Virus record (IMG/VR): IMGVR_UViG_3300042868_004924
Coordinates: 1 to 25,745 of that record
From: a virus
Strand: one strand, 5' to 3'
DNA length: 25,745 nt
Of this stretch, positions 35 to 22,239 are shown one piece after another. A program made the translations under genes and the position numbers. How positions within the stretch are numbered: position 1 is the first letter of the stretch; every line of letters begins with the position of its first letter. The notes under the pieces are model-generated. The model was not told where the DNA came from, did not search any database, and was given only the letters and a program-made list of their open reading frames with translations.

Positions 35-961
35 TTAGACGCCAGCGGCCAGCAGATACGAGTGGTAACCGAAGTTCCACCCAACGATGACTTCGGGGTA
101 GCCGATGAAGCTGACCGAGGCCCCAGACGACGCCGTGACGCTGGCGCTGACCGTGATGGTCGAGGTGGAGGTGACCACGCCCGTGACCGTCAGGTTGCTA
201 CCCGGCGAACCAGCGGTGGTACCGCTGATGCCCGCGATGACGCACTGCATACCCGGGACGATGCCCGTGGTGGACGAGACCGTGAAGGTCGTGGCAGCCG
301 AAGGCGACGAGGACAGAGCGGTCTGAACCGTGACCGCCGTCTCGGGGACCAACTGGATCACGCGCAGGCAAGGCGAAGTGCCCGCACCCGTGCCGACCGT
401 CTGGCGGATGTTGCCAGCCACCGACGAAGCCACCGTGGGGTTGCCACCCGAGACACCAGCCAGCGAGTTGCCGGTTGCCGTCGAGCCGCCGTTGCCAGCG
501 ATCAGGAAGGCGTTGGTGCCCAGGAACGACGGCGACATGTAGCCGACGGTCTGGCCGGTGTTCAGTTGCGTGTTGGCCGAACCTTGCGCCTGCGCCACCA
601 CAACGGCCTTGAACAGGGCGTTGGGATCGTCCAGAACGTAGGCCACGGCATCCGGGGCGTTGGTGCTCGCCGGGTAGTACTGCTGCCGCACCTTGCCGAA
701 GATCGGGCCAGACCCGGTGCTGTATTCGCAGCCCAGGAAGACGCCGACGATGTCACCCGCAGCGGCAGCGGACTGCGTGTCCGCGTTGTACGGGGTGATG
801 ATGGAATTGCCGTTGGACAGGCCGACGGCGTCACCGTTGAAGATGTTGGTGGCGTAGCCTTGGCCGATGGGGATCATCCGGGTGGAACCCGCGAACGGGA
901 TACCGCCCTTCAGATTGACCGGCTGAAGGCCGTATGGCTTGTCAATCGAGGGGTAGGACAT
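35..961 (-). CDS. Head structural protein, possibly capsid decoration
   Basis: 308 residues, rich in Gly, Ser, Thr and Ala, with no signal peptide or membrane segment. The N-terminus (YPSIDKPYGLQPVNLKGG, then FAGSTRMIPIGQGY) and the YVLDDPNALFKAVVV segment resemble head-associated proteins of environmental podovirus-like phages, recalled from memory. Residues about 210-290 form a beta-rich Ser/Thr segment (TFTVSSTTGIVPGM and TSTITVSASV) that looks inserted before the conserved-looking C-terminus GYPEVIVGWNFGYHSYLL. An SD (AAGGAG) precedes the ATG, and the gene follows the preceding one by 14 bases in the leftward late operon. It could be a decoration or a minor capsid protein; the enzymatic classes can be excluded. 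Confidence 0.7.
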   Translation of the reverse strand: MSYPSIDKPYGLQPVNLKGGIPFAGSTRMIPIGQGYATNIFNGDAVGLSNGNSIITPYNADTQSAAAAGDIVGVFLGCEYSTGSGPIFGKVRQQYYPASTNAPDAVAYVLDDPNALFKAVVVAQAQGSANTQLNTGQTVGYMSPSFLGTNAFLIAGNGGSTATGNSLAGVSGGNPTVASSVAGNIRQTVGTGAGTSPCLRVIQLVPETAVTVQTALSSSPSAATTFTVSSTTGIVPGMQCVIAGISGTTAGSPGSNLTVTGVVTSTSTITVSASVTASSGASVSFIGYPEVIVGWNFGYHSYLLAAGV

Positions 962-975
962 GAAAGACTCCTTGT

Positions 976-1425
976 TTACTGGCCGCGTCCGAACGAGACC
1001 TCAGAACGACGCTGTTTGAACAGAGGCATACGGGGATCGTTCTCGCGCATGAAGGTGTTGTCCACGGACTCCATCTGACCAGACGCCTGACCCTGGTAGA
1101 AAGCATTCCGTTGATCAACGAGTTCTTCGGGGGTTCGACAGAGGATGAGGCCACCGATCTCCAGGGAGCCCGGGATCCGCGCTTGCGGGTCGCACAGGTG
1201 CTGAAGCTCAGGATGGTCTGCAACCTTGGCAGGCTCCCAGCCTTCACGGAACTTGGAGGTGATGTTCCGGGGATCGGCGGTCCCCAGAGTGCTGACGCGA
1301 ACCCACCGATATACGTACCCGGGAACCGGGGTCACTTCCGGGAGCAGTTCAGCAGGCTTCCAGGTCATGGGGCGCTCTGCTTTGGCGCGAGTTTCAGCTT
1401 CGCGGGGGGTTCGTTGGTCAGCCAT
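976..1425 (-). CDS. Conserved phage head-region protein of unknown function
   Basis: 149 residues. The start ATG overlaps the end of the scaffold-like gene by eight bases. Recognisable segments are MTWKPAELLPEVTPVPGY, a Trp-rich VYRWVRVST stretch, REGWEP, LEIGGLILCRTPEELVDQRN and a C-terminus with MESVDNTFMRENDPRMPLF. I recall this pattern from uncharacterised genes lying between scaffold and capsid genes in environmental podovirus-like phages. The stop codon TAA lies inside a GTAAAC hexamer and is followed at once by the SD of the next gene, so the two are probably translated in series. A structural or assembly role is inferred from position only. Confidence 0.75.
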   Translation of the reverse strand: MADQRTPREAETRAKAERPMTWKPAELLPEVTPVPGYVYRWVRVSTLGTADPRNITSKFREGWEPAKVADHPELQHLCDPQARIPGSLEIGGLILCRTPEELVDQRNAFYQGQASGQMESVDNTFMRENDPRMPLFKQRRSEVSFGRGQ

Positions 1426-2341
1426 TTTGTTTCCTCATCTGTTCCGCAACAGCCCGAGCGTACTGCTCAGGCGTAAGTCCTAGCCGCTTGGCTAGCGTTA
1501 CCTGGGTCTGCGTCAGCACGATCTTTTTGGGCGCTGTGCTGCGCGTTGCCGGGGCAACTACGGATGACTTCTTCTTCTCCTGGGTAAACGCTACAGGAAA
1601 AGTAGATTTCATCTCAGAGTCGATACGATTGAAGTACTCGTCGCTTCCGACGGGCACCCCTTCTCGCTCAAGTTCTCTGTGAATCTCCATCGCCACAGCC
1701 GACATTCGGAGATTTGACCCAAACCACGGATTGGCTTCTTGCCACGCTCGCGTTTTTGAGTCAACTTGTGGCGTCGGCGGCGTTTGTACAACATTTTCCG
1801 GCGTTTGTACAGGGGTGGGTTCGGGCGGACGGAATGCCGCCAGTTTTTCCGCCTTCAGCTTGACTGAGAAAAGCTCTTCCTGGGCAGCAAGAACTGCCTT
1901 GGCATCGCCTTCTTCATAAGCCTTTTCATACTTCTTCCGGGCCGCGTCCAGTTCGCCTTCGACGGCTTTTTTGGCCTGTTCGATGGCTACTTGCCGGCTT
2001 TGTCCTGCCGACTTCTGGAGCTTTTGGTTCTCTTCCAGAAGCCTTTGGGTGAGACGCAGTGCCTCTTCCCGCTCTCGCAGCGCCGATTCTTTTGCCCGGC
2101 GCTCCTCGTGGTAACCCTTGGAGAAGTGTTGGATGCGCTGCTTGACCCCCTCGGAGTATTTCGCCAACTCGTCGTCAGTGACATCCGCAGGCGCCTCCTT
2201 CATTAGAGGCCGGTTCTTATCCTGCTCCGGGGTGTCGTCCACCACCTCGATCTCTGCGTCACCTTCGATCTCGAAATCAACCTTCTTGTCGTCAGCGACC
2301 ACCTGAACTTCGTCAGGGAACTTGAACTCTTCTTTGTCCAT
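1418..2341 (-). CDS. Scaffold-like head assembly protein
   Basis: 307 residues. The first 60 are very acidic. Residues about 75-175 are charged, Ala/Glu/Lys/Arg-rich and strongly helical, with coiled-coil character (EERRAKESALREREEALR, LLEENQKLQKS, ARKKYEKAYEEGDAK). A Pro/Thr linker (about 185-205) follows, then a conserved block KTRAWQEANPWFGSN and a basic C-terminus. An acidic start, a helical middle and a small basic C-terminal domain are the usual plan of scaffold proteins, and the place just before the capsid genes agrees. It lies two bases after the GroES-like gene. It could instead be a minor head protein; no protease motif is visible. Confidence 0.8.
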   Translation of the reverse strand: MDKEEFKFPDEVQVVADDKKVDFEIEGDAEIEVVDDTPEQDKNRPLMKEAPADVTDDELAKYSEGVKQRIQHFSKGYHEERRAKESALREREEALRLTQRLLEENQKLQKSAGQSRQVAIEQAKKAVEGELDAARKKYEKAYEEGDAKAVLAAQEELFSVKLKAEKLAAFRPPEPTPVQTPENVVQTPPTPQVDSKTRAWQEANPWFGSNLRMSAVAMEIHRELEREGVPVGSDEYFNRIDSEMKSTFPVAFTQEKKKSSVVAPATRSTAPKKIVLTQTQVTLAKRLGLTPEQYARAVAEQMRKQNG

Positions 2342-2343
2342 GG

Positions 2344-2742: not shown

Positions 2743-2932
2743 CTTCAAGCCTTTTAAGTCGGTCTACGAGGTCAATGATGTAAACATGAGCCTGCGATAG
2801 ACCTCGGATCTCGCCGGTCATGGACTTGTACTCAGAAAAGTCCCGTGCGCCGCCGGAGATGAGGGCTTGGGCGATTTGCTCGCGCCTGTCTTCAATCTCT
2901 TTTAGCACCACGGAGAACGCAGTGGTTGCCAT
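2735..2932 (-). CDS. Small conserved protein between portal and GroES-like gene
   Basis: 65 residues, mostly helical and charged (LKEIEDRREQIAQALISGG, then a C-terminal IIDLVDRLKRLEDE), with coiled-coil potential and no cysteine or membrane segment. A strong SD (AAAGGAG) lies seven bases before the ATG. The gene sits 69 bases after the portal and overlaps the GroES-like gene by eight bases. Small helical proteins in this place are common in related phages. Its job is unknown; an adaptor or assembly factor for portal or head is the reasonable guess. Confidence 0.72.
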   Translation of the reverse strand: MATTAFSVVLKEIEDRREQIAQALISGGARDFSEYKSMTGEIRGLSQAHVYIIDLVDRLKRLEDE

Positions 2933-3001: not shown

Positions 3002-5431
3002 TTACTGGGTGGGTTTTGACTGTTGTTTCTGCTGAGACGGGCGAACCATGGTCTTGACAAGGTCCGTCCGCAGCTTTTTGTCCGTCTGGGCGGCTTGTGA
3101 CCGCAGTCTGGACTGTTCCTTGAGCATTTCAGCCTTGATTCGCCCTTGCTCAAGGGCGATTTTCTGTTGGGCAATTTGGAAATCTCGCTGACTATCGGCC
3201 TTCTTTCGCTGCAGTTCTTGTGTCCGAAGCTGAAGTTCTGCCTGTTGAAGCTGCAATTCAGGGTTTTGTGCCTGTTGTTGAGCTTGTTGTTGGGCAAACA
3301 TGGCTTGGTTCTGCACCATCGTCCTCTGTGCTGCCGCCGCGATAAGAGGAGCAAGTGCCTTTTCATCCTCCGGGGCGATGGGGGCGTTGTTTTCCTCGTC
3401 CAACTCTGGAAGGGTCACGCCCAACTGCATCTCTACCTGGGCCCGGTAGGCAAACGCCGCATGTTCTGCCATGTGAGCCATTAGCGAAGCCATCATTTGC
3501 TGAGACATGGGGTTCTGACCCAGGGTCGCAGCGATGTTCGGGTCTTGCATGAATGCCTGATGGGTAGCCATGTGGGCCTGATGATCCTGGTATGCAAACG
3601 CCTTGACGGGCTGCATACGAAGGACGGCCATGTTCTCCGACACCGGATCCCTTGGCTTTTGATCATCGGAGGTCGGAACCAGCTTTTCTGCATCCTTGAT
3701 CCCCAAAACCTCCAACATCTGCCTGTGGAGCTTTGGAAGGTCATAGATCTGAGGGGCACCTTGGGCCAGTTGGAGGGCCGCTTGGTACTGCATGATCCGC
3801 TGAGCCATGGTGGCCGCATTGGGATCACTGACCGGGATCACCTCCACCATGTCGTAGTCGGACTGTTTCAACGACCTGTTCCCACCCTCTGGGACATAGG
3901 AATACGCCGGAGACATGAAGTCCCTGATGATCTTCTTCAGGAGCTTGAACTCCATCCGAAGACTTGCGTGGACCCGGGCCTGGACGGCACTCATGGTTTT
4001 GAGTTGCCGCTCCAGGATAGCCAGGGTGGTCCCCACGGGCGCCTGAGCGGACATATCACTGACCTTCAGATCAGCGATGGCCGCGAGTCTTCGCCCGTCT
4101 TCCGTGATCCGATCCAAGAGAGACGCCAGAACTTGGCTGGGCTCCTTGTACGGAAGGGGCATGATGTTCTCTTTGACCGTACCAGAAGGAACATCAACAT
4201 CCCGGAACTCTCCAGGGGCAATCGGGGTGTCGTCTCCCTTGATTCTCAAACCCCGGGCCTTCAGGCCCCCAGGGAGGTTGCTCAAGGTTCCCGCATCTAC
4301 CAGTTGCCTAATAAGGGAAGTGCCTGCTCGCGCATATCCACCGATTAGATGGATATACCCTAGCCCATAGGCACCAAACCCGGGGATGTAGGTGTACTGG
4401 ACGAAGTGCTGACGCTTCTGATTTTTCTCGTCATCCTCTTCCCAGTTTCGCCGGATGGACAGAACGGTGTTGTTGCCCTTCTCAATGGTTACCACATATG
4501 GGAGGGCAACGTCCTCTTCATATCCCGGGAGATCCAGATCGGCATGGATCTCAAAGATCCGATACCGATCATCATCCTGGAGACTGAAACCTTGCTCCTC
4601 TGCTTTCTTCTTCTCGATGTCCGTGAAGAACTGCGCGGGCTCTCCCAACTCCACATCCCGGTAGAACCCGCTGACTTGTAGCTTACGGATCTCATTCTTC
4701 GTCTTACGCATCACATGAGTGACGCGCTCGGCCGTGTAAATGTTAGATGCGCCGTAGGGAATGATGAGATCTTCCGCCGGGACAAAGGGAGCGGCGGGGA
4801 GTTCCGTGTTGTCATCCGGGTAGATCTTCTTGAATGCCGCACCTGACAGGCCCAGGGAATACAGCATCCGCTCATGCTCGGACCTGTAGTCCACCATTTT
4901 CTCGGTCAGGGTGACGTTCATATCCTCCCGGACACGATCAGCCACCTCTTCCTTGACTCTGGTGATCTCCCCAATGATCTGAGTCTTAACCGGCCCTTGA
5001 GCAGGGAAGGTCTCCACAATCATTTCTGACTGGAACCTGACAGCAGCTTCTGTCAAAAGAGGAGAGAACACCCCACAAGCCCCAGACCACGGCTCCGTCC
5101 TCTCTTCATACTTCATCCCCAAGACCTCCAGACCCTTGATGTACATCTCGGTCCAGTCTTTGCGGGAGTTGATGTCCGCATCTACAAGCTCCACAAGTTC
5201 AGAGGCAAGAGAACTCAGTGCCCCCTCATCCATGAACTCCGCGAGGTTCGCCCCAAACTCTTCTGCGGCCTCCTCCGGCTCAAGGACAACCTCCAGACCA
5301 TCCATGCCAACGGTCACCCGATCCGGGTTCTCAATCTCAATTTCCATGACGGACTCAGAAACCACCGGGCGATCAGCAGGCACCATCGCCCGGTCAATGT
5401 TTGTTGCCATGTCTTGTCCTTGTAAACGCAT
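3002..5431 (-). CDS. Portal protein (large, podovirus-like)
   Basis: About 809 residues. The portal forms the ring at one head vertex through which DNA enters. After an acidic N-terminal 70 residues comes a body with KDWTEMYIKGLEVLGMKYEE, EPWSGACGVFSP and AFKKIYPDD, and a later block SQVLASLLDRITEDGRRLA, all typical of large portals from environmental phages. The last 110 residues are Gln/Ala-rich coiled coil (FAQQQAQQQAQNPELQLQQA), a barrel-like tail seen in large portals. The ATG at 5431 overlaps the terL stop as TGATG. A second start at 5410 (MATNIDRAM) has its own SD, AAGGA, and may be the true one. Position directly after terL supports the call. Confidence 0.88.
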   Translation of the reverse strand: MRLQGQDMATNIDRAMVPADRPVVSESVMEIEIENPDRVTVGMDGLEVVLEPEEAAEEFGANLAEFMDEGALSSLASELVELVDADINSRKDWTEMYIKGLEVLGMKYEERTEPWSGACGVFSPLLTEAAVRFQSEMIVETFPAQGPVKTQIIGEITRVKEEVADRVREDMNVTLTEKMVDYRSEHERMLYSLGLSGAAFKKIYPDDNTELPAAPFVPAEDLIIPYGASNIYTAERVTHVMRKTKNEIRKLQVSGFYRDVELGEPAQFFTDIEKKKAEEQGFSLQDDDRYRIFEIHADLDLPGYEEDVALPYVVTIEKGNNTVLSIRRNWEEDDEKNQKRQHFVQYTYIPGFGAYGLGYIHLIGGYARAGTSLIRQLVDAGTLSNLPGGLKARGLRIKGDDTPIAPGEFRDVDVPSGTVKENIMPLPYKEPSQVLASLLDRITEDGRRLAAIADLKVSDMSAQAPVGTTLAILERQLKTMSAVQARVHASLRMEFKLLKKIIRDFMSPAYSYVPEGGNRSLKQSDYDMVEVIPVSDPNAATMAQRIMQYQAALQLAQGAPQIYDLPKLHRQMLEVLGIKDAEKLVPTSDDQKPRDPVSENMAVLRMQPVKAFAYQDHQAHMATHQAFMQDPNIAATLGQNPMSQQMMASLMAHMAEHAAFAYRAQVEMQLGVTLPELDEENNAPIAPEDEKALAPLIAAAAQRTMVQNQAMFAQQQAQQQAQNPELQLQQAELQLRTQELQRKKADSQRDFQIAQQKIALEQGRIKAEMLKEQSRLRSQAAQTDKKLRTDLVKTMVRPSQQKQQSKPTQ

Positions 5432-6927
5432 CAATAATAACTGACTGGCCGTCTGTAAGCCATCTCATCAGGCTCATCCGAAGCGATGGAGATGAAGCCT
5501 CCCTTGCGGAACCTCATCAATGCCTGAGAGGCAGAGTCAGTCAAGTCATCATGCTCCCCATAAGGGAACTCTGCCATCTCTTCAGAAACCTCCTCCGCCC
5601 ACCTCCGGTCAGGTCTCCAAACCATCCCGGAGGCAAACAGATCCACCACGGCATTCACCCGGGAGATCTTGTCCTGCCCTTTGTAGGGGGTGTATTCAGA
5701 GACCGGAACCCCGGCTTTACGAAGCTCATACACCAAAGGAGCGCCAGCGGCCCTCTTTTCGATGATCGTCGTGTCAGGGCTCCATTCCCTGTAAAGCTCC
5801 ACAGCCTTCCTCTTCAGGTCCGGGAACTCCATTCGCTGTTTCAACGCATCCAGAAGGATGATGTTGGGAACCATGTTCCCATGCCTATCCTCCCGGTCAA
5901 ACACCCCCCAGGTGGTGCATGCCGAGTAGTCAGCCCTGTTGGATGTCTCAAAAGCGGTGTCCCAAGACTGGATGATGTACTGGCACGGCGGAGGGCTCTC
6001 CCCCTCCCATATCTTCCAGTACTCTCGTTTAACTATCGCCCCCTCTTCCGAGGTCGGGTTCTGCTGGTACTGAGCCTCCCACTTGGCTACAGGGATCTCA
6101 GCCTTGATCGACTCCAACTCCTCCTTCTTCCAGAACCCAGGCCACAAGGGAGTTCCAGAAGGAAGAATGGCCGGGAACTCGATGATCTCCCAGTCATCCG
6201 TGCCATCTTTTGAAGAGTTCTTCAAGAGCTGCCCGGCCAAGTCCTTCTTGGACCACCGGGTCATCACAACAATGATCGCACCCCCTGGCTGTAAACGCTG
6301 TCTCGGTCCAGAGGTGTACCACTCATACACAGCGTCATACACAGCAGGGTTCCCCTGCTTCGCCTCCTGCTCACTATGAGGATCGTCAATGATCAACAGA
6401 TCCGCACCCTTACCCGTCACCGCCCCACCCACACCAATAGCGAAGTAGTCTCCGCCCTTGTCTGTGTTCCATCTCCCAGCAGCCTTCGAGTCACTGGACA
6501 ACTGAGTCCCAAAGACCTTCTTGTAATCCTCCGACGAAACAAGGTTGCGAACCTTCCGGCCAAAGCCCACAGCCAACTCTGCGGTGTGTGCCGTCTGAAT
6601 GATCTTCTTCTCCGGGAACTTCCCAAGAAACCACGCCGGCAAAAGATACGAAGCAAACTCAGACTTCGTGTGCCTCGGAGGCATATTGATAATCAACCTC
6701 TTCAACTCCCCATTAGCCACCCTCTCAAAAGCATCAGCCATGATCTGATGATGCTTCCCAGAGATAAACACCGGCCACATCTGCTTGACAAAGAACAAGA
6801 AGCTCTCCCGGCACCTCTGTACCCTGTCCATCTCCAAAAGAGCCTTGATCTTCTTCCTGTCCCCCTCAGACACCCTGTCCACTATCTGCAGATAGCTGGT
6901 GATCTCCTGCCTTGACAACAATGTCAT
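5431..6927 (-). CDS. terL: Terminase large subunit
   Basis: 498 residues, the usual length. The ATPase domain has a terminase-style P-loop INMPPRHTKSEF (about 80-91), Walker B LLIIDDPHS (177-185) and a coupling motif VVMTRWSK (220-227). The RNase H-like nuclease domain shows SWDTAF (Asp about 323), TIIEKRAAG (Glu about 390) and HDDLTDS (Asp 460/461), the acidic residues that bind metal and cut DNA. It packages DNA through the portal encoded just downstream. An AGAGGG SD precedes the start. The first 62 bases overlap the upstream winged-helix gene, a longer overlap than the other joins in this operon. Confidence 0.95.
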   Translation of the reverse strand: MTLLSRQEITSYLQIVDRVSEGDRKKIKALLEMDRVQRCRESFLFFVKQMWPVFISGKHHQIMADAFERVANGELKRLIINMPPRHTKSEFASYLLPAWFLGKFPEKKIIQTAHTAELAVGFGRKVRNLVSSEDYKKVFGTQLSSDSKAAGRWNTDKGGDYFAIGVGGAVTGKGADLLIIDDPHSEQEAKQGNPAVYDAVYEWYTSGPRQRLQPGGAIIVVMTRWSKKDLAGQLLKNSSKDGTDDWEIIEFPAILPSGTPLWPGFWKKEELESIKAEIPVAKWEAQYQQNPTSEEGAIVKREYWKIWEGESPPPCQYIIQSWDTAFETSNRADYSACTTWGVFDREDRHGNMVPNIILLDALKQRMEFPDLKRKAVELYREWSPDTTIIEKRAAGAPLVYELRKAGVPVSEYTPYKGQDKISRVNAVVDLFASGMVWRPDRRWAEEVSEEMAEFPYGEHDDLTDSASQALMRFRKGGFISIASDEPDEMAYRRPVSYY

Positions 6928-7362: not shown

Positions 7363-8016
7363 TCAGGCATCGGTCCCCGTCTTGCCTGCCACGAGGCGCA
7401 GGTGCTGCGCCAGATCCCGGCGCAGTGCGTCAGGCGACGCGGTGCGGTCCTTCTCGACTGGTGCTGATGTAAACGCTCCGGAGGCCTTGCCGAGTAGCTC
7501 CAGGGCTCGCAGCCGGGTGTTGTCAGCCGTGCCCTTACTCAACTCCACCAGACTCCTCACCACATACCTCCTTGCCGCTATGTGGTCCTCCACCAGCGCC
7601 TCTTGTGTCTGTTCCCAGGCTTGATCGATCAGCGCCCGGACTCTTGGATTGCGTCCTAGCCGGTACGCCTGGACGCTTGCTGACTCGTCTGATGCCTGCG
7701 ACCCGTAGGCATCTCTATACGCTTGACGGAGGCTGCTTCCCTCTATGACGCGCCTTGCAAATTCCTGTTGCTTGGCCGTCAGTGGGCGGAGACGGCGGTA
7801 GCTTGGTGCCCCCTTGAGTTGACCGTCTGCCCTCTTGTGCGGACCTGGAGAAGCCCCTGCCATCTGTTCCGCTTCGCTGCCTACCGGGCCGGGCTCTGTT
7901 TCGTGTAAACGATCAAGGTCAGCCTCAGCCTGCGCCAGTGCATCGAGCACGTCCCGCTGGCTCGCTCGACCCCGCTGAGTCCCAGGCTCGCCGTCCTTCC
8001 CTGTGGTTTTGTACAT
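7363..8016 (-). CDS. terS: Terminase small subunit
   Basis: 217 residues. It recognises the packaging site on phage DNA and loads the large subunit. The first 70 residues are hydrophilic and probably disordered. The core from about residue 75 (LTAKQQEFARRVIEGSSLRQAYRDAYG) is the typical helix-turn-helix of terminase small subunits, followed by RNPRVRALIDQA and a helical oligomerisation region HIAARRYVVRSLVELSKG. The C-terminal tail is charged, as expected for the part that touches terL. It is the first gene of the leftward operon, behind a promoter at 8045-8073. The start has no clear SD; because the disordered N-terminus is not conserved, an internal start is possible. Confidence 0.85.
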   Translation of the reverse strand: MYKTTGKDGEPGTQRGRASQRDVLDALAQAEADLDRLHETEPGPVGSEAEQMAGASPGPHKRADGQLKGAPSYRRLRPLTAKQQEFARRVIEGSSLRQAYRDAYGSQASDESASVQAYRLGRNPRVRALIDQAWEQTQEALVEDHIAARRYVVRSLVELSKGTADNTRLRALELLGKASGAFTSAPVEKDRTASPDALRRDLAQHLRLVAGKTGTDA

Positions 8017-12540: not shown

Positions 12541-12561
12541 TCTTCAACAGGAGATGTAAAC

Positions 12562-13143: not shown

Positions 13144-13145
13144 AC

Positions 13146-13499: not shown

Positions 13500-13511
13500 A
13501 CAGGAGAGAGA

Positions 13512-14180: not shown

Positions 14181-15872
14181 TCAGAACGCGTCTAGGTTCT
14201 CGGTGTACGTCCCTGCTGTACGGTTGAAGAGGAGGGTCGTTTCCCCCTGCGTCCCGACCCACCGATACCGGCATTTCCAAACTGCGATCTCGACGTACCT
14301 ATCCTGCCGGTGGACCGTCAAGCCGCAGTCTGCCTTGGCCCACCATGCCATTGACCCGCTGATGCTCATGCCATCCGGTCTTGGTTGATCTGTCCCTGAC
14401 CGCTGCATCTTTGAGGGATGGGCCACGAACCATGTGTGAACGTCCTGAGCCTTGCAGAACCTCTGGACCCTGGTCAGCATCTGACTGATGGCATCCGTCT
14501 CTGTGGTGTCCTTACGGTCTAGATCGATGTAGTTATACGGGTCGATAACCATTCCCCGGACGCCCATGCGCTTGACGGCTGCTCTTGCCCTGGTCAGGAT
14601 GCTATCCAAAGTGTTCGACTCTTCCCCCGCTGAGTCGATGAAGAGGAAGTGTTCCTTGACCCATGTAAACGCATCCTCCTTCTCCTTCTCAGTCATCCGA
14701 TCCCGGCCCTCAAAAAATCTCTTTCTCGTGTAAATCTCCATCAAGCGACTGATATGGATCTCCGGACTGTTCTCAAACGACGCAACAGCAAACTTCCAAT
14801 CACTGTCCCTTGCGAGGTTGACCATCAACTGATCAACGAAATTGGACTTGCCGGAGGATGGATAGCCGGTGACCACGGTCAACTGCCCCGGCGCCACCGT
14901 GTAAATGCTGTCTAGTGCCGGATAGCCGGTGCTGAACCCCGAGCCCTGCCCCTTGGAGTAAAGGTCGTTTACACGTTCCTCGAAGGTGCTGGCGTCCGAC
15001 AAACCTGCGATGGGGTACGGTTCAGCCGCCTCCGCGATGGCCCGCACATCCTCCTTGCCATTCCGAGAGGGGTCATTGAGGATCTCGTTGAAATCCTTGG
15101 CATCGAACTTTGCCAATCGGCACTTGTCCTTGCCAATCCTTCGGGCAAGCTCTTCGGCCAATGCCTGCCCCGGCGGATCCTGATCTGTTGCAAGAACGAC
15201 GTAAGGAACAGCATCAAGAAGTTCCCGTGCGTTCCATACAAATGCGAACTTCTTGTCCTCAGATGGAAGAACCTTCCCATCTGCCACCTTCAACGGCGCA
15301 CCACCGGGCACGGAAACGACGTTATCGATGCCCGCCTCTCGTGCTGAGAGGACATCGATCTCTCCTTCGACTATGACCAGAGGCTTGGTCTTGTCTGCCC
15401 ACTGCATCCCGAAGAAGTCATGCGCCCCTCCGGCATCCTGTGTAAATGCCTTCTCAGGTACAGCCCTGTACTTGGCTGCGACCATCGCTCCGTCCCGGAA
15501 GTACGGGAACCCAATGGCGTCCTCCTCCCGGTCTAGCTTGTTGAAGTACTTCCTCGTTGAGAAGAGCTTCGCATCGTCTGCCGTCAGCCTTGAGATGCCT
15601 CTGCCCTCAAGCCAAACGTAATGCTCTTCAGATAGCCTTGCGTCCTGTATCTTAGGAACAGCCTGCACGTATCTCTCCTTCCTGTGTTCTCTGTTATCCC
15701 TTGAAGGGATGATCCCGTTTACACCGCAGTGATGGCAAAAGTACAGCACTGACCCGCCTTCTTTCCGGGTCAGGGTCATGTCTTTGCTTCTTGTTTTTCG
15801 CCTGTCTCCCGAGCACTCGGGGCAGGTCACGCGGGCGTGGTCTTGGAACTGAATGCCTTCTAGGGCTATCAC
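14181..15872 (-). CDS. Bifunctional primase-helicase (T7 Gp4/Twinkle-like)
   Basis: 563 residues. An N-terminal zinc finger (Cys 17, Cys 20, Cys 46, Cys 49; CPEC and CHHC) is followed by a TOPRIM primase core (VIVEGEIDVLSAREAG near 165-180 and VVLATDQDPPG near 225) and a RecA-fold helicase (P-loop GYPSSGKSNF near 333-342, Walker B-like MVIDPYNYIDL, and WFVAHPSK). The enzyme unwinds the fork and lays lagging-strand primers. The GTG start overlaps the stop of the HNH-like gene (GTGA). The zinc finger is compact and near-complete, so priming is probably active. Several TGTAAAC/T motif copies lie inside this gene. Confidence 0.93.
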   Translation of the reverse strand: MIALEGIQFQDHARVTCPECSGDRRKTRSKDMTLTRKEGGSVLYFCHHCGVNGIIPSRDNREHRKERYVQAVPKIQDARLSEEHYVWLEGRGISRLTADDAKLFSTRKYFNKLDREEDAIGFPYFRDGAMVAAKYRAVPEKAFTQDAGGAHDFFGMQWADKTKPLVIVEGEIDVLSAREAGIDNVVSVPGGAPLKVADGKVLPSEDKKFAFVWNARELLDAVPYVVLATDQDPPGQALAEELARRIGKDKCRLAKFDAKDFNEILNDPSRNGKEDVRAIAEAAEPYPIAGLSDASTFEERVNDLYSKGQGSGFSTGYPALDSIYTVAPGQLTVVTGYPSSGKSNFVDQLMVNLARDSDWKFAVASFENSPEIHISRLMEIYTRKRFFEGRDRMTEKEKEDAFTWVKEHFLFIDSAGEESNTLDSILTRARAAVKRMGVRGMVIDPYNYIDLDRKDTTETDAISQMLTRVQRFCKAQDVHTWFVAHPSKMQRSGTDQPRPDGMSISGSMAWWAKADCGLTVHRQDRYVEIAVWKCRYRWVGTQGETTLLFNRTAGTYTENLDAF

Positions 15873-16105
15873 TTCATTGACCCGTCCTTCCTCCTTTGGA
15901 AGCTACGGTTCTTGGACGGAGTCTGCAGCTTGTACCCGTCCTTGTTTGAACCGCCCTTGGACAGCGCAACGGTGTGCGCTACGTCTTTCCCTTGCCTGTC
16001 CACTCCCTTCGCGTCCAAAGCCCTTCTAGCCCTTTGGCGCTCCATCCGAGAGGGGTGTTCATCCCTTGCCTTCTGCGTCCTGTATTCCTGCTTGTAGTCT
16101 CTCAT
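15869..16105 (-). CDS. Small basic HNH-like protein, possibly degenerate
   Basis: 78 residues, very basic. The block GKDVAHTVALSKGGSNKDGYKL followed by SKNRSFQRRKDGS is the pattern of a short HNH-like family in phages, in which I recall a DH pair where this protein has AH. One His and the Asn of the motif remain; the second half of a full HNH site is not evident. HNH proteins cut or nick DNA, but here activity is doubtful. It is joined by ATGA and GTGA overlaps to its two neighbours in the replication operon. Confidence 0.65.
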   Translation of the reverse strand: MRDYKQEYRTQKARDEHPSRMERQRARRALDAKGVDRQGKDVAHTVALSKGGSNKDGYKLQTPSKNRSFQRRKDGSMK

Positions 16106-16353: not shown

Positions 16354-16661
16354 TTCGATCTCCAAACGGGCTGTGCCCGTGCATGGCTTTTCAACGCACG
16401 GCTACTCCTGTACTCGCCAGTCTTCTCGATGAGCTTTCGCTTGGACAGGTGTAAACAAACCGCGCCCCAGGCGTTCGGGGAGGGAGGACCGGGAAAGCCA
16501 TTTCGCTCTGCCCGGAGCCTCAACTCCTCAAACAGAGCGCCTTTGTAACCGATGTCCTTCAGGTATGCAAGCACTATCTTCTCTGCTGTGCTATGCCAAT
16601 CTTCACCGGCATTGAACAGAGCTTGCTGAGCGCCTGCATCTCTCAGAGATTGACCATCCAT
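16350..16661 (-). CDS. Putative winged-helix-like phage protein
   Basis: 103 residues, first gene of the leftward replication operon. The middle (FEELRLRAERNGFPGPPSPNAWGAVCLHLSKRKLIEKTGEYRSS) has the look of a winged helix: helix, turn with Pro, recognition-like helix around NAWGAVCLHL, then a basic wing. The C-terminus KSHARAQPVW matches a tail I recall in small phage replication-region proteins. The fold prediction is by eye. It could help load the helicase or regulate the operon. Confidence 0.62.
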   Translation of the reverse strand: MDGQSLRDAGAQQALFNAGEDWHSTAEKIVLAYLKDIGYKGALFEELRLRAERNGFPGPPSPNAWGAVCLHLSKRKLIEKTGEYRSSRALKSHARAQPVWRSK

Positions 16662-17135: not shown

Positions 17136-17163
17136 TTGCAAGGGCCAACCTCTGTGCTATCCT
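17136..17163 (+). promoter_or_regulatory. Rightward promoter for the candidate small RNA
   Basis: TTGCAA (17136-17141) and TATCCT (17158-17163) with a 16-base spacer, and an extended -10 TG (17155-17156). The same TGC-TAT arrangement is seen in the promoter at 17610-17638. Initiation is expected near 17170. Confidence 0.5.
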
Positions 17164-17657
17164 TGTCTCCGCTCTGTTGCTGGAGCGATCTCCCTCCTGT
17201 GGCGCTTCGGCGCCTTGGCCCCGGTTGACCTCCGTCCCGGGGCCTTTTTTTGTCCCGGCATCTCCCGGACGGTGATGACACATCGAGGGCACTCCTTGTC
17301 TTGATGCCAGTAGATGTGCTTCTCCTTGACCTGTCTGTCGTTTACATAGAGCCTTCCCTGGAGCAGATCCAAGATGAGGCTCTCGTCCAAGTCTGGTCGT
17401 CGGGAGGCGTACCAGATATGGATCTCCGCAGAGACATCCTTGTCCGTGGGGTTCTCCGCCGGGGCGCATTGCTGTTGAAACATCTCTGAGTAGGTCAGGG
17501 CCTTCTGGCTCTTGATCAGCCGAGACATCCCGCCGAACCGGACGACCCTCCTGCTGTTGGCCTTGCTTGCAGGCTCCCCAAAAATTTCTCTGGTTTCGCA
17601 GAAAAGTGCTTGCACTTGTTCTGCGCTAGTGCTATGCTCTGTCTCATCGTTCAACAC
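17157..17657 (-). CDS. rusA: RusA-family Holliday junction resolvase
   Basis: 166 residues from a GTG with an AGGAG SD; a second GTG 19 codons in (VQALFCETREIFG) is possible. The conserved part is GEPASKANSRRVVRFGG, RLIKSQKAL, ASRRPDLDESLILDLLQGRLYVNDRQV, carrying the acidic residues (DLDE, then ND) used by RusA to bind magnesium and cut four-way junctions. The RusA domain ends near ITVREMPG; the remaining 32 residues are basic, low-complexity and are encoded opposite a terminator and a structured RNA, so they are probably an add-on tail. The resolvase fits the exonuclease and annealing genes that diverge from it. Confidence 0.85.
   Translation of the reverse strand: MLNDETEHSTSAEQVQALFCETREIFGEPASKANSRRVVRFGGMSRLIKSQKALTYSEMFQQQCAPAENPTDKDVSAEIHIWYASRRPDLDESLILDLLQGRLYVNDRQVKEKHIYWHQDKECPRCVITVREMPGQKKAPGRRSTGAKAPKRHRREIAPATERRQG
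17170..17251 (+). ncRNA. Candidate structured small RNA antisense to the rusA 3' end
   Basis: About 82 bases bounded by a promoter and a strong terminator, with three adjacent perfect stems: CGCTC/GAGCG (17170-17187), GGCGC-TTCG-GCGCC (17201-17214, a stable UUCG tetraloop) and the terminator stem. No protein-coding gene upstream on this strand needs the terminator, because everything from 14181 to 17657 reads leftward. The RNA would be antisense to the last 32 codons of rusA, which look like non-conserved tail. No known RNA family is recognised; a single-stranded gap at 17188-17200 (ATCTCCCTCCTGT) is CU-rich and could pair with SD sequences. Confidence 0.5.
17217..17251 (+). terminator. Strong rightward rho-independent terminator inside rusA
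   Basis: Stem GGCCCCGG (17217-17224) pairs with CCGGGGCC (17237-17244) around a 12-base loop and is followed by seven T (17245-17251). There is no matching T-run for leftward transcription, so it works rightward only. Confidence 0.8.
17610..17638 (+). promoter_or_regulatory. Rightward promoter for the recombination operon
   Basis: TTGCAC (17610-17615) and TATGCT (17633-17638) are separated by exactly 17 bases, with an extended -10 TG. Initiation near 17645 gives a 24-base leader to the TTG start of the nuclease gene. The promoter lies inside the rusA coding region, so the two divergent transcripts overlap or collide at their 5' ends. Confidence 0.65.
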
Positions 17658-17669
17658 AGGAGATCTCCT
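17658..17669. promoter_or_regulatory. Palindromic ribosome-binding site shared by two divergent genes
   Basis: AGGAGATCTCCT is a perfect 12-base palindrome. Read rightward, AGGAG stands six bases before the TTG start of the nuclease gene; read leftward, the same sequence puts AGGAG seven bases before the GTG start of rusA. The starts are only 11 bases apart. One symmetric element thus decides both starts, and both are weak start codons. Confidence 0.75.
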
Positions 17670-18544
17670 TGATCATCACAAACAACCATGGCGCTCCGGC
17701 TACGTTGGTCGCCTTGGCCCGGAAAAACTACTACTCAAAGGGGGACTCGGACTACTCCGTCACGGAGCTTCTGTCTCCACCCAGGGTTCGACGGCTTCAA
17801 GAGCGGCACGATGCCGTCTTGACAAAGGATGTCTCTGACATGCTCTGGGCCCTGCTTGGATCGGCACTCCACGTTGTAGCTGAACGGGCCTCTGCCGAGG
17901 ATCATGTCACAGAAGAGAGGATCGTCGCGGACATCGACGGTGTCAAGGTCTCTGGTGGCATTGATCTTCAGGAGATGACTCCCTCGGGCGTGATCATCAC
18001 CGACTACAAGTTCACTTCTGCCTACTCCGTGATGAACGAGAAGAAGGAGTGGGAAGAGCAGTTGAACCTGTACAAGTGGCTGGTAGAGTCCGTCAAGCGG
18101 ATTCCGGTCAAGGGCCTTCGGATCTGCGCCCTGATCCGGGATTTCTCTCGCCATGATAGGCGCGAGAATTACCCGGACGCTCCGATCCATATGGTGGACA
18201 TCCCCATGTGGGACTCTGTGACCGCAGAGGCGTTTGTACGCTCCCGTTTACAGCTTCACACCGAAGCAAAGTTTGCAGATGCGATGGAGGAGCCCCTTCC
18301 ACCATGCTCTGCGGAAGAGCGTTGGTTTTCCGAGACAACCTACGCCGTGAAGAAGGAAGGCAGGAAGACTGCCGTCCGCGTGTTCAAGACCATCGAAGAG
18401 GCCCAAGAGTTGGCCGCAAAGGAGAAGGGATATGTCGAAACCCGAGCAGGAGAGCCCCGCCGCTGCACCGGAAACTTCTGTGGAGTCGCAGAGTTCTGCG
18501 AGCAGTACCAGTCAGAAGTCAATCTACGACTTGCTGAAACTTGA
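17669..18544 (+). CDS. Cas4/RecB-like PD-(D/E)XK exonuclease
   Basis: 291 residues from TTG with a good SD. The nuclease core is VSGGIDLQ (Asp near 98), IITDYKFTS (Asp near 112, Lys near 114) and the helix EEQLNLYKWLVES, the usual motif order of RecB-type nucleases. Cysteines 213 (PPCSAEERW), 266, 271 and 277 (CTGNFCGVAEFC) can hold a Fe-S cluster as in Cas4 and AddB. Such nucleases resect ends for phage recombination. The last 113 bases overlap the annealing-protein gene in another frame, across the cysteine motif. N-terminal 45 residues (VTELLSPPRVRRLQERH) fit the DNA-entry region. It could act in replication instead of recombination. Confidence 0.87.
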   Translation: MIITNNHGAPATLVALARKNYYSKGDSDYSVTELLSPPRVRRLQERHDAVLTKDVSDMLWALLGSALHVVAERASAEDHVTEERIVADIDGVKVSGGIDLQEMTPSGVIITDYKFTSAYSVMNEKKEWEEQLNLYKWLVESVKRIPVKGLRICALIRDFSRHDRRENYPDAPIHMVDIPMWDSVTAEAFVRSRLQLHTEAKFADAMEEPLPPCSAEERWFSETTYAVKKEGRKTAVRVFKTIEEAQELAAKEKGYVETRAGEPRRCTGNFCGVAEFCEQYQSEVNLRLAET

Positions 18545-19208
18545 TGTCAGCAAGTTCATCGAGAAGAAGCAAGGGCTCAGCTACGTCTCCTGGGCTCATG
18601 CCTGGGCGATTGCCCTGAACGCAGACCCATACGCGAACTTCCGTGTTCATACGTTCGGGCCCAACGGTGACGAGTGCTACATGCGTGTAAATGGCACGGC
18701 GATGGTGTGGGTCGATGTCACCCTCTTCTCCAAGTCCATCACTTGCTGGCTTCCGGTCATGGACCACCGCAACAAGCCCATCGCTGACCCGGATTCTTTC
18801 CAGGTCAATACGGCACTCATGCGTTGCTTGACGAAGGCACTTGGATTCCACGGCCTGGGGCTGAACGTCTACGCGGGAGAAGATCTGCCTCTGTCCGTCC
18901 CTGGAGAGGAAGAAGACAAGCCCGCCAAAGTGCCTGCAAAGGCTCAGAAGGACTCTCCCAAGGAGCCTGTGAAGGAGCCTGTGAAGGAGGAGGCGAAGAG
19001 CCCTGATGAAGATCCCCAACTGTCTGCAGAACTGTTTACAGATGGGTTTGTGGAATACATGATCGTTGTGCAAAGCACAGACGGCCTGAACAGCTACTGG
19101 AAGTCCAACCAGACCAAGCTGGACAAGCTCAAGGCGAAGTACCCCGATCTGTATGAGCGATGCCTGTCCGTTGCCAAGGACAGGAAGCAGCAACTGAGCA
19201 AGGAGTGA
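18432..19208 (+). CDS. DUF1071/Sak3-type single-strand annealing protein
   Basis: 258 residues. Core from about residue 30: SIYDLLKLDVSKFIEKKQGLSY, VSWAHAWAIALNADPYA, ITCWLPVMDHRNKPI and TALMRCLTKALGFHGLGLNVYAGEDLP, the DUF1071 signature. These proteins anneal complementary single strands and pair with an exonuclease, here the gene upstream. The C-terminal third is a Lys/Pro/Glu-rich linker (KEPVKEPVKEEAKSPDED) and a small helical end. The start lies 113 bases inside the nuclease gene; SIYDLL is conserved and no later start keeps it, and AAGGAG precedes the ATG, so the overlap is real. The extra N-terminal 29 residues are Ser/Ala/Glu-rich. Confidence 0.88.
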   Translation: MSKPEQESPAAAPETSVESQSSASSTSQKSIYDLLKLDVSKFIEKKQGLSYVSWAHAWAIALNADPYANFRVHTFGPNGDECYMRVNGTAMVWVDVTLFSKSITCWLPVMDHRNKPIADPDSFQVNTALMRCLTKALGFHGLGLNVYAGEDLPLSVPGEEEDKPAKVPAKAQKDSPKEPVKEPVKEEAKSPDEDPQLSAELFTDGFVEYMIVVQSTDGLNSYWKSNQTKLDKLKAKYPDLYERCLSVAKDRKQQLSKE

Positions 19209-19210
19209 TC

Positions 19211-19486
19211 ATGGCATTTGAACAACGTCCCGATTCCGGGCGGCTGATGGCCGCTCAGAGCAAGCGCAGCGAGAAAGCCCCGGACTACTGGGGAGAACTT
19301 GCGATCAACATCAAAGACCTGACCAACGCTCAGGTCGAAAAGGGTTTTGTGACTTTCAAGCTGTCAGGCTGGAAGAAGCAAAGCAAGACCGGAGTCACTT
19401 ACCTGAGCTTGGCAATCGACCGCCGAGTTCCCAAGGAGGAGACCCGCAAGCCCAGTCGTCAAGACGATGACGACATTCCTTTCTGA
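19211..19486 (+). CDS. Small protein with SSB-like C-terminal tip
   Basis: 91 residues from the ATG behind AGGAG. The body (APDYWGELAINIKDLTNAQVEKGFVTFKLSGWKKQ, then VTYLSLAIDRRVP) has alternating beta-strand character like a short OB-type fold. It ends RQDDDDIPF, almost identical to the DFDDDIPF tip of bacterial SSB that recruits repair and replication proteins. The body is too short and different for standard SSB. Placed directly after the annealing gene, it is either a minimal phage SSB or an adaptor that competes with host SSB for partners. Confidence 0.75.
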   Translation: MAFEQRPDSGRLMAAQSKRSEKAPDYWGELAINIKDLTNAQVEKGFVTFKLSGWKKQSKTGVTYLSLAIDRRVPKEETRKPSRQDDDDIPF

Positions 19487-19494: not shown

Positions 19495-19851
19495 ATGAGC
19501 AAGACGAAGCAGGCCGAGGAGATGTTCCAGGCAAACAAGGATGTGGCTGTGAAGGATGTCGCAGCCCAATGCGGGATCACGGTGGCACATGCCTACGCTG
19601 TGCGTAGCCGGGTTCTTGGCAAGCCCAAGCGGGCCTACCGCAAGCGCCAGACAACCTCAAAAAAGGTTGTGATCTCGTTGATCAAGAACGAGGCCAAGGC
19701 GTCAAACGAAAATGATGAGACCATCAAGTCTTTGAACAATTCGGTCATCCTTTTGGAGGCTCAACTGAGCGAGGCACTCCGAAGGGTGGATGAGTACCGG
19801 GTGGTCATCCGCTACCTTGAGCGGAAGATCGAAGATGCCGATGCAGTTTGA
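19495..19851 (+). CDS. Helix-turn-helix plus coiled-coil hypothetical protein
   Basis: 118 residues, SD GAGG. The N-terminal 45 residues (AEEMFQANKDVAVKDVAAQCGITVAHAYAVRSRVLG) look like a homeodomain-type HTH in which DVAAQCGIT and HAYAVRSRV form the paired helices. A basic stretch (KPKRAYRKRQTTSKK) links to a C-terminal heptad-rich helix (IKSLNNSVILLEAQLSEALRRVDEY). This is the form of a dimeric DNA-binding regulator or nucleoid-type protein. No named family is recognised. It overlaps the next gene by 17 bases. Confidence 0.7.
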   Translation: MSKTKQAEEMFQANKDVAVKDVAAQCGITVAHAYAVRSRVLGKPKRAYRKRQTTSKKVVISLIKNEAKASNENDETIKSLNNSVILLEAQLSEALRRVDEYRVVIRYLERKIEDADAV

Positions 19852-20212
19852 GGCGCGAAAGGTCGCCCTCAAGCAGGACCGCACGGGGTTTGTACTGACC
19901 CTGTCCGTCCACCCCGACGAGTTCCCATCAGAGCTTCTGAGGGACTTCGTCGGGGCAAGGTATGCCTGCGCGATGGTGCGGATCAACGAAGACGAAACGC
20001 CCGTCACCTACAAGAACCGGGTCCAGCAAGCAGCCATGCTTTGCAAGAACCCGTCGTTTCAACAGTTCCTTGGCACCGATGGAGAAGATGCCACTGCGAA
20101 AGCCCTGTGCTCTCGTCTGGGAATTGACTCCCGGACAGAACTCAATGGCAACTCTTTGGCTCAATCCCTCTTCGATGACCTTGTGGCGGAGTTTGAAAAT
20201 GAAGCCTTCTAA
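19835..20212 (+). CDS. Conserved phage protein of unknown function
   Basis: 125 residues from MPMQFEARK; MQFEARK two codons later is equally good. The N-terminal half QFEARKVALKQDRTGFVLTLSVHPDEFPSELLRDFVGARYACAMVRI is a compact beta-rich pattern that I recall in recombination regions of other phages without known activity. The C-terminal half is helical (QAAMLCKNPSFQQFL, LGIDSRTEL). It overlaps the preceding gene by 17 bases and the next by 14, so all three are translated from one mRNA. Association with the exonuclease and annealing genes suggests a DNA-processing helper. Confidence 0.72.
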   Translation: MPMQFEARKVALKQDRTGFVLTLSVHPDEFPSELLRDFVGARYACAMVRINEDETPVTYKNRVQQAAMLCKNPSFQQFLGTDGEDATAKALCSRLGIDSRTELNGNSLAQSLFDDLVAEFENEAF

Positions 20213-20576
20213 GCTACGTCCCTTCTTCGCCTATCTTACCGACGAGCAGTATGCATCGTTGAAACAGTTCAGCGTAGAGACTGGGGTCTCCATGACCCAA
20301 CTCATCAGGGAAAGTGTCGATGCGCGGCTGTCCAAAGGCGATCAGTATGTCGCCGGGTACAACCAAGCTATCAAGGATGCGATCCAGACAATCAACGGTA
20401 ACAACCTGTCGAAGATGGCATTCCCTTCAGGGAAGACCTTTGGGGAAGTGATCATCGAGGATATCTCTGCACACATGAGGCACAACGATGGAACTGGAAC
20501 AAGCGGAGCCGATGCGCAAGATCGTCAAGTTCGTGAAGAGCAAGGGCTCTCTCCCAACCCCGGAGCAGCAACGTGA
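20199..20576 (+). CDS. Ribbon-helix-helix DNA-binding protein
   Basis: 125 residues from the ATG at 20199. Residues 5-45 (LRPFFAYLTDEQYASLKQFSVETGVSMTQLIRESVDARLSKG) match an Arc/CopG ribbon-helix-helix: a beta strand, helix A, a Gly turn and helix B. The rest is helical and ends in a hydrophilic tail. Such proteins are dimeric repressors, so it may regulate this operon. The gene overlaps the previous one by 14 bases and its stop overlaps the GTG of a later gene (GTGA). Confidence 0.72.
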   Translation: MKPSKLRPFFAYLTDEQYASLKQFSVETGVSMTQLIRESVDARLSKGDQYVAGYNQAIKDAIQTINGNNLSKMAFPSGKTFGEVIIEDISAHMRHNDGTGTSGADAQDRQVREEQGLSPNPGAAT

Positions 20577-20667: not shown

Positions 20668-20770
20668 TTGGCCCTTCCCAATCTCCATCATCGATGGAGA
20701 GGTGGTGAGAAACGTTTACAGGTTCGACCGCAAGACATTCCTTGCGGCTCAGCAGGAGGCTCTTCTATGA
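20573..20770 (+). CDS. Small hypothetical protein
   Basis: 65 residues from a GTG that overlaps the previous stop (GTGA). The first half is Arg/Ser-rich, lies within an overlap with another frame and is probably not well conserved; the second half (WPFPISIIDGEVVRNVYRFDRKTFLAAQQEALL) looks like real protein. The stop overlaps the next ATG as ATGA, which supports translation in this frame at least through that end. A start at the internal ATG (20594) is possible. Function unknown. Confidence 0.55.
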   Translation: MKRSDSRMRRSEPGHLTERSELNPQRSRNVANWPFPISIIDGEVVRNVYRFDRKTFLAAQQEALL

Positions 20771-21284: not shown

Positions 21285-21715
21285 CTGTGAACAGGCTGGA
21301 AAACTACGAAACCCTGTATCAAAAAGTTGGCCGCAAATACAAAGCCGTTTGCACGGTGCGTGACCTTCACTTCAAGTATGAGAACCTTCTACATGCAGGT
21401 CAATGGCGGATGGAATACTGTCCCAAAGACGGTTGTGGTCGGTACTGGTACGACGTAACCCCAGATATAGCATCTTGGTCTGCAGCGGCCATGATGGCTG
21501 AAAACGCGATGATCGAGTCCATTAACTCGGCAAGGTTTGCTGTGCCAAATTTTGGAGAAGGAGTACCTTTGACCAAAGCACAACAAAAAGCCGTGAAGCA
21601 AGCCAATAAGCTGATGAAGGATGTCGGTCTCCTTGATCCTCTGTGGTGGTCTCAACCCAGTGCCTTTGACATTGCAAAGGCCGGCATTGATGCCGTTAAG
21701 GAGTTTGGGAAATGA
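21281..21715 (+). CDS. Hypothetical protein
   Basis: 144 residues from a GTG overlapping the MazG-like stop; a second GTG two codons later is possible. The middle has an aromatic- and Cys-containing block (WRMEYCPKDGCGRYWYDVT) with a CxxxxC that could bind a metal, then an Ala/Met-rich helix (ASWSAAAMMAENAMIESIN). The C-terminus is LLDPLWWSQPSAFDIAKAG. No family is recognised. The stop overlaps a tiny frame at 21712. Confidence 0.65.
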   Translation: MTVNRLENYETLYQKVGRKYKAVCTVRDLHFKYENLLHAGQWRMEYCPKDGCGRYWYDVTPDIASWSAAAMMAENAMIESINSARFAVPNFGEGVPLTKAQQKAVKQANKLMKDVGLLDPLWWSQPSAFDIAKAGIDAVKEFGK

Positions 21716-21756
21716 TTCACACTCCCGGACCCTATGTGGAAAGGAGGGCGCCATGA
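21712..21756 (+). CDS. 14-codon mini-ORF with an HTPGPY start, possibly a gene remnant
   Basis: ATG overlaps the stop of the gene before it (ATGA) and its own stop overlaps the ATG of the gene after it (ATGA), so it fits the gap exactly. It reads MIHTPGPYVERRAP. From memory, HTPGPW/Y is a common N-terminal signature of small phage proteins about 60-100 residues long, so this could be the cut-down head of such a gene. The SD of the next gene (AAGGAGG) lies inside it. It may be translated only to couple its neighbours. Confidence 0.35.
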   Translation: MIHTPGPYVERRAP

Positions 21757-22022
21757 GCGGCGGCTTCTTTGGTTACGCTCAGTACAAGATCGATCAGATC
21801 GCGGATCAGATCTCTGATGTGATCCAAAGAAACGATCAAACACCATTCCCCTATTCCCCCGCCACTATTCAGCAACTGACAGAAGCTGTCAGGGCTTTAG
21901 AGATTGCCTTCGTTTACGCGAATAGAACTGACTGTCTCCTCAGCGGAGATGACTCAGAAGAATACTTTGAGAAGCGTCTTCAGCAAGACTTGATTGCCGT
22001 GGATGAAGATCTTAAGGACTGA
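21753..22022 (+). CDS. Hypothetical protein
   Basis: 89 residues with a strong SD (AAGGAGG). It begins MSGGFFGYAQYKIDQIADQISDVIQRND, a pattern I recall in small proteins of phage replication regions, and continues with helical, acidic sequence (LTEAVRALEIAFVYANRTDCLLSGDDSEEYFEKRL). No enzymatic motif is visible. It ends one base before the next start. Confidence 0.68.
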   Translation: MSGGFFGYAQYKIDQIADQISDVIQRNDQTPFPYSPATIQQLTEAVRALEIAFVYANRTDCLLSGDDSEEYFEKRLQQDLIAVDEDLKD

Positions 22023-22023
22023 C

Positions 22024-22239
22024 ATGGACAAGTTCTACGTCATTTCGTTTGATTCCGTTGGAAACGTCATTGACACCAAACGGGTCGCTGTAAACGCCAA
22101 GTCCCCAGACCGGGCATTGGATGCGTTCTGGTGCTGGGCGCGGCTTCAACCCTGGTATATGCACACCTGGGATTTGAAGATCCATTTGGAAGAGATCCGC
22201 CAGATCGACCCCCCAATGGGGCCAGTCAAACTGAACTAA
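22024..22239 (+). CDS. Hypothetical protein, last of the recombination operon
   Basis: 71 residues. MDKFYVISFDSVGNVIDTKRVAVNAKSPDRALDAFWCW looks like a small alpha/beta fold; the C-terminus is acidic with Pro. It starts one base after the previous stop. It carries the last TGTAAACG copy seen in the window (22089-22096). After it the gene chain is interrupted for about 96 bases. Confidence 0.62.
   Translation: MDKFYVISFDSVGNVIDTKRVAVNAKSPDRALDAFWCWARLQPWYMHTWDLKIHLEEIRQIDPPMGPVKLN

Follow-up and report, generated by a model that had tools for sequence, protein, structure and literature searches.

The 25,745-bp IMG/VR contig IMGVR_UViG_3300042868_004924, analyzed here in its entirety (the window), is strewn with the 7-mer TGTAAAC, and related phages carry clade-specific forms of the same word. 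The form of the word co-varies with a RusA-family Holliday junction resolvase, and the word is absent where RusA is replaced. We tentatively interpret the copies as dispersed recognition sites for a dimeric DNA-processing protein of the phage, most likely as sites of resolution by RusA.

Scanned on both strands, the window contains 20 copies of TGTAAAC (11 on the plus strand and 9 on the minus strand), found exactly at the starts listed in an earlier sequence-only reading of this DNA. Order-1 and order-2 Markov models and dinucleotide shuffles predict 0.9 to 1.0 copies, below the two or so assumed in that reading; none of 100 dinucleotide shuffles reached 20 copies, and TGTAAAC ranks first among all 7-mers of the window, so the claim of over-representation stands with a lower expectation. 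The base 3′ of the word is A or G at every copy, and the copies divide into 13 of TGTAAACG and 7 of TGTAAACA; four of the 20 are CGTGTAAACG. TGTAAAT is present five times, each time preceded by G. The first, third, and last of these figures had been reported before and were reproduced by our recount. One-base variants of TGTAAAC are near background, with the exceptions of GTGTAAAT (TGTAAAT, 5 copies) and GTGTACAC (TGTACAC, 2 sites).

Sites occur in all frames (GTT-TAC-A, CGT-TTA-CA, TTT-ACA, and GTA-AAC), and the residues encoded across them include Val-Tyr, Arg-Leu, Phe-Thr, and Val-Asn. Two sites coincide with stop codons (13139 and 13495; three had been claimed), and two are intergenic (5421 and 12555). 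Shuffles that kept every protein and the codon set of each gene contained a mean of 5.0 copies and at most 9 in 200 trials, versus 20 observed, and this null is conservative because rare codons brought by the word are retained. The lack of TGTAAAC 3′ of 22096 was confirmed in the window; for 20 sites placed uniformly, P is 0.047, a marginal value, and longer relatives carry the word along the full contig.

Comparison with related phages, proposed in the sequence-only reading, recovered the word in these phages. Among alignable window sites, identical sites are present at 13 of 17 positions in L008, 13 of 17 in L009, and 12 of 15 in L003 (relatives are designated by L or G numbers), while control 7-mers of equal composition are kept at 31%, 37%, and 55%, respectively. 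At position 7904, the window has GTGTAAAC and L002, L003, L006, and L007 have GTTTACAC; two changes have exchanged the half-sites, and a site remains. Such a swap would be expected under symmetric, dimeric recognition and points to a symmetric dimer as the reader. The earlier proposal that selection acts on the DNA rather than on the protein is supported by the excess over the codon-preserving null, by the occurrence of sites in every frame, by their retention above control words, and by the exchanged half-sites.

Relatives were collected with the primase-helicase of the window, which retrieved 217 related stretches, of which the best 80 were taken; with later scans, the set comprised 216 loci of ≥6 kb, some of which overlap or duplicate one contig. 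The word is borne by 193 of these 216 loci. TGTAAAC itself is found in relatives with primase identity of >90% and in L076, and the palindrome GTTTAAAC (YGTTTAAACR) is the form of most other relatives, some of which bear both. Six motif-rich relatives of 55 to 64 kb have 24 to 49 copies of GTTTAAAC per contig, with about 0.3 to 1.5 expected where computed; the highest count, 49 in a 63.5-kb contig, compares with 1.5 expected. Alignment of the flanks yields one underlying site, YGTKTAMACR; the form of the window clade is the pseudopalindromic RTGTAAACR, and alternative forms are ATTTAAAY in L181 and L211 and GTTAAACR in L167, with L169 carrying GTTAAACR besides TGTAAACR. The half-site AAACR is constant in almost all forms, and the opposite half is variable. 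No close isolate was found, the nearest named phages being Pag-Yong1/MinM2/Pra-JY27 and Pelagibacter, Caulobacter, and Roseobacter phages with ∼30 to 49% protein identity, and our literature searches returned no report of this word in phages. Some relatives have further enriched words: ACCGGCAC in G002 and G004 (L082 to L089, TG clade; 22 and 20 copies, ∼3 expected), GTTGAAAC in G002 (20 copies versus 2.8 expected), and CCCTCGCC (12 versus 0.4 expected) and CACCCTG (29 versus 4.4 expected) in L181 and L176.

On ten whole contigs of 55 to 66 kb, sites span each contig, denser in the replication/early region and sparser in structural genes. Of 577 sites, 482 lie within predicted genes. Density is 0.89/kb in genes and 2.5/kb between genes (2.5/kb in tandem, 3.4/kb in convergent, and 1.5/kb in divergent gaps), with gap statistics that are approximate because genes were called with a simple purpose-made caller. 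Orientation to transcription is unbiased in tandem intergenic gaps (17 sense versus 18 antisense sites). The word recurs every 0.6 to 2.3 kb with near-random spacing, no clustering, and few pairs closer than 50 bp. Regular spacing or cooperative arrays were rejected on these grounds, and a promoter operator was rejected on the lack of enrichment in divergent gaps.

A lineage represented by L031 to L033 carries neither TGTAAAC nor GTTTAAAC. Its primase is 66 to 70% identical to those of motif-bearing phages, its capsid genes are related too, and L032 retains portal, terminase, and primase genes; the SprT-like, CobS-like, and CobT-like genes and RusA are all absent from L032 and L185. Among contigs spanning the spot, RusA is gone only in L032, L185, L190, and L191, all four of the motif-less lineage, and these contigs have the ribbon-helix-helix (RHH) protein, the single-stranded DNA-binding protein (SSB)-like protein, and the exonuclease. 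The RusA position is occupied there by a protein of 124 to 126 amino acids (aa) confined to this lineage, the start of which, KPDDSTIAEDVQAL, resembles the RusA leader EPDDSTSLEDLQAL of L181 and L211, with the sequences diverging beyond. This replacement protein matched no Pfam, PHROG, or NCBIfam family; in our judgement, by eye, it appears to have a PD-(D/E)XK-like pattern (FGCIDLLCIG...AVQVTS). L032 and L185 also carry ArdC-like and Rap1a-like genes and a 47-aa protein judged by eye to be RHH-like.

An association scan of 71 phages, in which word-spectrum distance was compared with protein distance with phylogeny and GC controlled, identified RusA as the strongest predictor of word divergence among the proteins tested (partial r of 0.42 to 0.44; p of 0.005 or lower). 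Other proteins gave partial r values of −0.06 to 0.31: the signal was weaker yet present at the RusA neighbors PDDEXK (0.22 to 0.24) and Sak (0.12 to 0.31), and the remainder were at ≤0.19. RusA retained a partial r of 0.27 to 0.58 when one clade at a time was left out and ranked first in 154 of 200 clade bootstraps, and 20 sets of shuffled words gave a partial r of ∼0. A further pointer to RusA is its location in a recombination module alongside the exonuclease and the Sak annealing protein. AlphaFold models were too poor for fold searches (pLDDT of 42 for RusA and 66 for the RHH protein).

How might a resolvase come to shape a genome? The phage encodes an exonuclease, Sak, an SSB-like protein, and RusA and therefore probably replicates through recombination. 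Recombination-dependent replication would yield branched concatemers, and branched intermediates would need to be cut ahead of packaging. A sequence-selective resolvase would cut only once branch migration had placed a preferred sequence at the crossover, and a preferred sequence every 0.6 to 2.3 kb would make resolution of the genome faster. Such a benefit would favor copies of the word throughout the genome, whatever their frame or orientation, and a shift in resolvase preference would bring a shift in word form. Enzymes of the RusA family act on four-way junctions as dimers, with cuts at favored sequences, and phage members are often relaxed (PMC3485210). We infer that RusA reads the word, that cutting is its function, and that resolution speed is the selected trait. 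It is plausible, though somewhat less likely than not, that a RusA-family resolvase with an unusually long preference has shaped its own genome and that the word drifts or vanishes with the enzyme. Among the roles offered by the sequence-only reading, a protein binding site and a recombination signal fit best, with partial support.

Several considerations weigh against RusA as the reader. Its lead over the RHH protein in nearest-neighbor prediction is small, and neither gene-tree parsimony nor residue-level phylogenetic regression (generalized least squares) singles it out. The phages without the word form one clade, from which CobS, CobT, and SprT are missing too, so that the lineage represents one event with several gene changes and not proof. 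Mantel-type tests are only partly safe from shared ancestry, and the reader was picked after several genes had been inspected. Known resolvases (E. coli RusA, CC; RuvC, A/TTT-G/C; MOC1, C-C) are dimers that make symmetric cuts only with a preferred sequence at the crossover, and RuvC favors T-rich sites; unlike the longer phage word, however, their preferences, those of RusA included, extend over 2 to 4 nucleotides (nt), not 7 to 10 (PMC3485210, PMC7078210). E. coli RusA cuts 5′ of CC, and SPP1 G44P and r1t RusA are relaxed (PMC3485210, PMC7078210). In the literature library that we searched, no genome was reported to be enriched in such sites.

RHH proteins are dimers on short palindromes, and the RHH protein of the window was our initial favorite until the association scan demoted it. 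As reader, it would bind the word as a genome-wide operator, coating or silencing the genome or halting transcription in the manner of stoperators or nucleoid proteins, which we regard as unlikely. The protein matches Pfam RHH_3, a family type that usually binds short palindromes; its closest solved relative by profile is, weakly, the viral regulator SvtR, and it is encoded in all 160 contigs spanning its spot. The higher site density between genes than within them would suit an operator, an aberrant RHH beta-strand (PLLVRVTY) accompanies the different word GTTAAACR in L167, and nearest-neighbor prediction of the palindromic form works about equally well with RHH and RusA. However, the RHH ortholog is retained in the motif-less lineage, the partial r is ∼0 for distance in its DNA-binding domain and −0.15 to −0.19 for the beta-strand, divergent (promoter) gaps are unenriched, and sites are balanced in orientation. 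The L5-type stoperators of cluster A mycobacteriophages (PMC9283540) offer a precedent for ≥20 copies of a phage-specific site dispersed over a phage genome. They are asymmetric 13-mers oriented with transcription in short intergenic spaces and promoters (PMC9283540), whereas the word studied here is short, symmetric in most relatives, and unoriented; the absence of orientation bias and the mostly genic location led us to reject a stoperator. If RHH is nevertheless the reader, the sites would form a phage network for silencing or packing the whole genome.

It is improbable that the word has no selected function and builds up through biased repair or conversion at sites of a phage nuclease or of methylation-linked repair, as in one model for HIP1. 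The statistics are HIP-like across all frames, a ratchet has been proposed for HIPs (PMC4390886), and conversion driven by RusA nicking would also track RusA; on the other hand, sites are kept above control words, and the half-site swap leaves a site. HIP1 (GCGATCGC) of cyanobacteria is likewise short, mostly palindromic, tens-fold enriched, mostly genic, and found in any frame, and related genomes may switch to another word (PMC4390886). It differs in belonging to bacterial chromosomes and in being tied to a methylase (PMC4390886); the phage word belongs to a phage family, has one strict and one relaxed half-site, and takes a form that follows a phage recombination gene. The methylase with this site that had been suggested was not encountered: in a scan confined to the early region of the motif-rich G016, no DNA methylase ranked among the leading family matches of 40 proteins, and a C5 methylase was found only in G002. 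With no conserved methylase found among these early-region proteins, we rejected a methylation site, and methylation-linked repair is likewise disfavored.

A host function mirrored by the phage (a Chi-like, uptake, or nucleoid site) is an improbable reading. Bacterial genomes do over-represent Chi and uptake words (PMC4390886), and Chi shares with the phage word enrichment and a link to recombination. Chi, however, is an asymmetric word of the host chromosome read directionally by a helicase-nuclease, while the word here is phage-borne and palindromic or pseudopalindromic; its form tracks a phage gene even after phylogeny and GC are accounted for, and the word is missing from one lineage whose capsid and primase genes are related. 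A search for a host identified none, returning portal-bearing fragments only, in metagenome-assembled genomes (MAGs) of unrelated phyla, and a second protein query returned nothing. Portal-bearing contigs L118 to L133, from related phages, were assigned to MAGs of Armatimonadetes, Bacteroidetes, Chloroflexi, Saccharibacteria, and other phyla, with several contigs in a bin, which is likely mis-binning.

Recognition by the encoded Toprim primase for Okazaki priming, suggested earlier and compatible with a spacing within the Okazaki-fragment range, is very improbable, since the word is palindromic in most relatives and present in both orientations, primase distance has a partial r of ∼0, and the motif-less lineage keeps its primase without the word. 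A packaging signal, also suggested earlier, is unlikely because terminase and portal distances carry little information on the form of the word.

We know of no reader identified in thirty years for over-represented words such as HIP1. Related phages with differing versions of the word and one natural loss make the reader mappable by comparative genetics. If RusA is the reader, this would be the first case known to us of a branch-point nuclease writing its cutting preference genome-wide; with either RusA or RHH, word form would serve as a marker from which protein specificity could be predicted using only the DNA sequence.

Table 1. Word sites and genes of the window (positions from its first nucleotide)
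Feature	Position	Strand	Remark
TGTAAAC site	2779..2785	+	GTT-TAC-ATC, Val-Tyr-Ile; within gene 2735-2932 (-)
TGTAAACG site	5421..5427	+	Intergenic, portal/terminase genes; kept in L003
TGTAAACG site	6290..6296	+	Terminase large subunit gene
TGTAAACG site	7468..7474	+	Terminase small subunit gene
CGTGTAAACG site	7902..7911	+	Swapped half-sites (GTTTACAC) in L002, L003, L006, L007
CGTGTAAACG site	10521..10530	-	CobS-like gene
TGTAAACA site	11048..11054	-	CobT-like gene
CGTGTAAACG site	12339..12348	-	
TGTAAACA site	12555..12561	+	Intergenic, abuts ATG at 12562
TGTAAACA site	13139..13145	+	Overlaps TAA stop of gene 12562-13143
TGTAAACA site	13495..13501	+	Overlaps TAA stop of gene 13146-13499
TGTAAACG site	14664..14670	+	Primase-helicase gene
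CGTGTAAACG site	14966..14975	-	Primase-helicase gene
TGTAAACG site	15717..15723	-	Primase-helicase gene
TGTAAACA site	16450..16456	+	
TGTAAACG site	17340..17346	-	Within RusA gene
TGTAAACG site	18246..18252	-	PD-(D/E)XK exonuclease gene
TGTAAACA site	19034..19040	-	Sak annealing-protein gene
TGTAAACG site	20714..20720	-	
TGTAAACG site	22089..22095	+	
Variant GTGTAAAT	4734..4741	+	Other copies at 14728, 14899, 15440, 18685; G before each
CobS/MoxR-like AAA ATPase	9058..10569	+	Absent from motif-less lineage
CobT-like VWA protein	10566..12110	+	Absent from motif-less lineage
Toprim primase-DnaB-type helicase	14181..15872	-	Marker for finding relatives
RusA-family Holliday junction resolvase	17157..17657	-	Pfam RusA, E 6e-7; PHROG RusA-like resolvase, 2e-7
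PD-(D/E)XK exonuclease	17669..18544	+	Recombination module
Sak single-strand annealing protein	18432..19208	+	Recombination module; assignment includes PHROG
Small protein with SSB-like acidic C terminus (DDDDIPF)	19211..19486	+	Probable SSB function; conserved in motif-bearing phages
Conserved 123-aa protein	19841..20212	+	Not found in motif-bearing L202
Ribbon-helix-helix (Arc/CopG-like) protein	20199..20573	+	Pfam RHH_3, E 3e-6; homologs PHROG Arc-like repressor

Two other candidates among the conserved genes were set aside. CobS and CobT were rejected as readers because the TG word is common to the window and G002, yet their CobS and CobT proteins are only 38 to 43% identical. The 123-aa protein is probably not the reader, as it was not found in the motif-bearing L202.

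The Planktothrix phage Pag-Yong1 (L272, OL906435) has another dispersed palindrome, GGTTCAGSCTGAACCGGAT, between 8817 and 44624, with 15 to 18 close copies in 50 kb, often ∼20 to 30 bp upstream of genes. It also carries an unannotated RusA homolog at 18904 to 19230 (48.6% identity) and, by eye, a small RHH-like protein at 15607 to 15786. The records OL906435, OQ594354, and PP438419 are all 65,014 bp long and have the same match scores, with Planktothrix, Synechococcus, and Planktothricoides as the respective hosts; they may be a single phage under three names, or the hosts may be wrong. A 50-kb part of OL906435 has 68% GC.

Next to the primase gene, at 15869 to 16105 of the window, lies a gene for a 78-aa protein that appears HNH-like by eye and is shared by all full contigs, with or without the word. 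Adjoining small genes at 23400 to 25071 of the window share the starts MADLRQAAQQALKALEK, MADLRQAAQQALEALRK, and MTDLKKAAQQALEALEM and are probably tandem paralogs.

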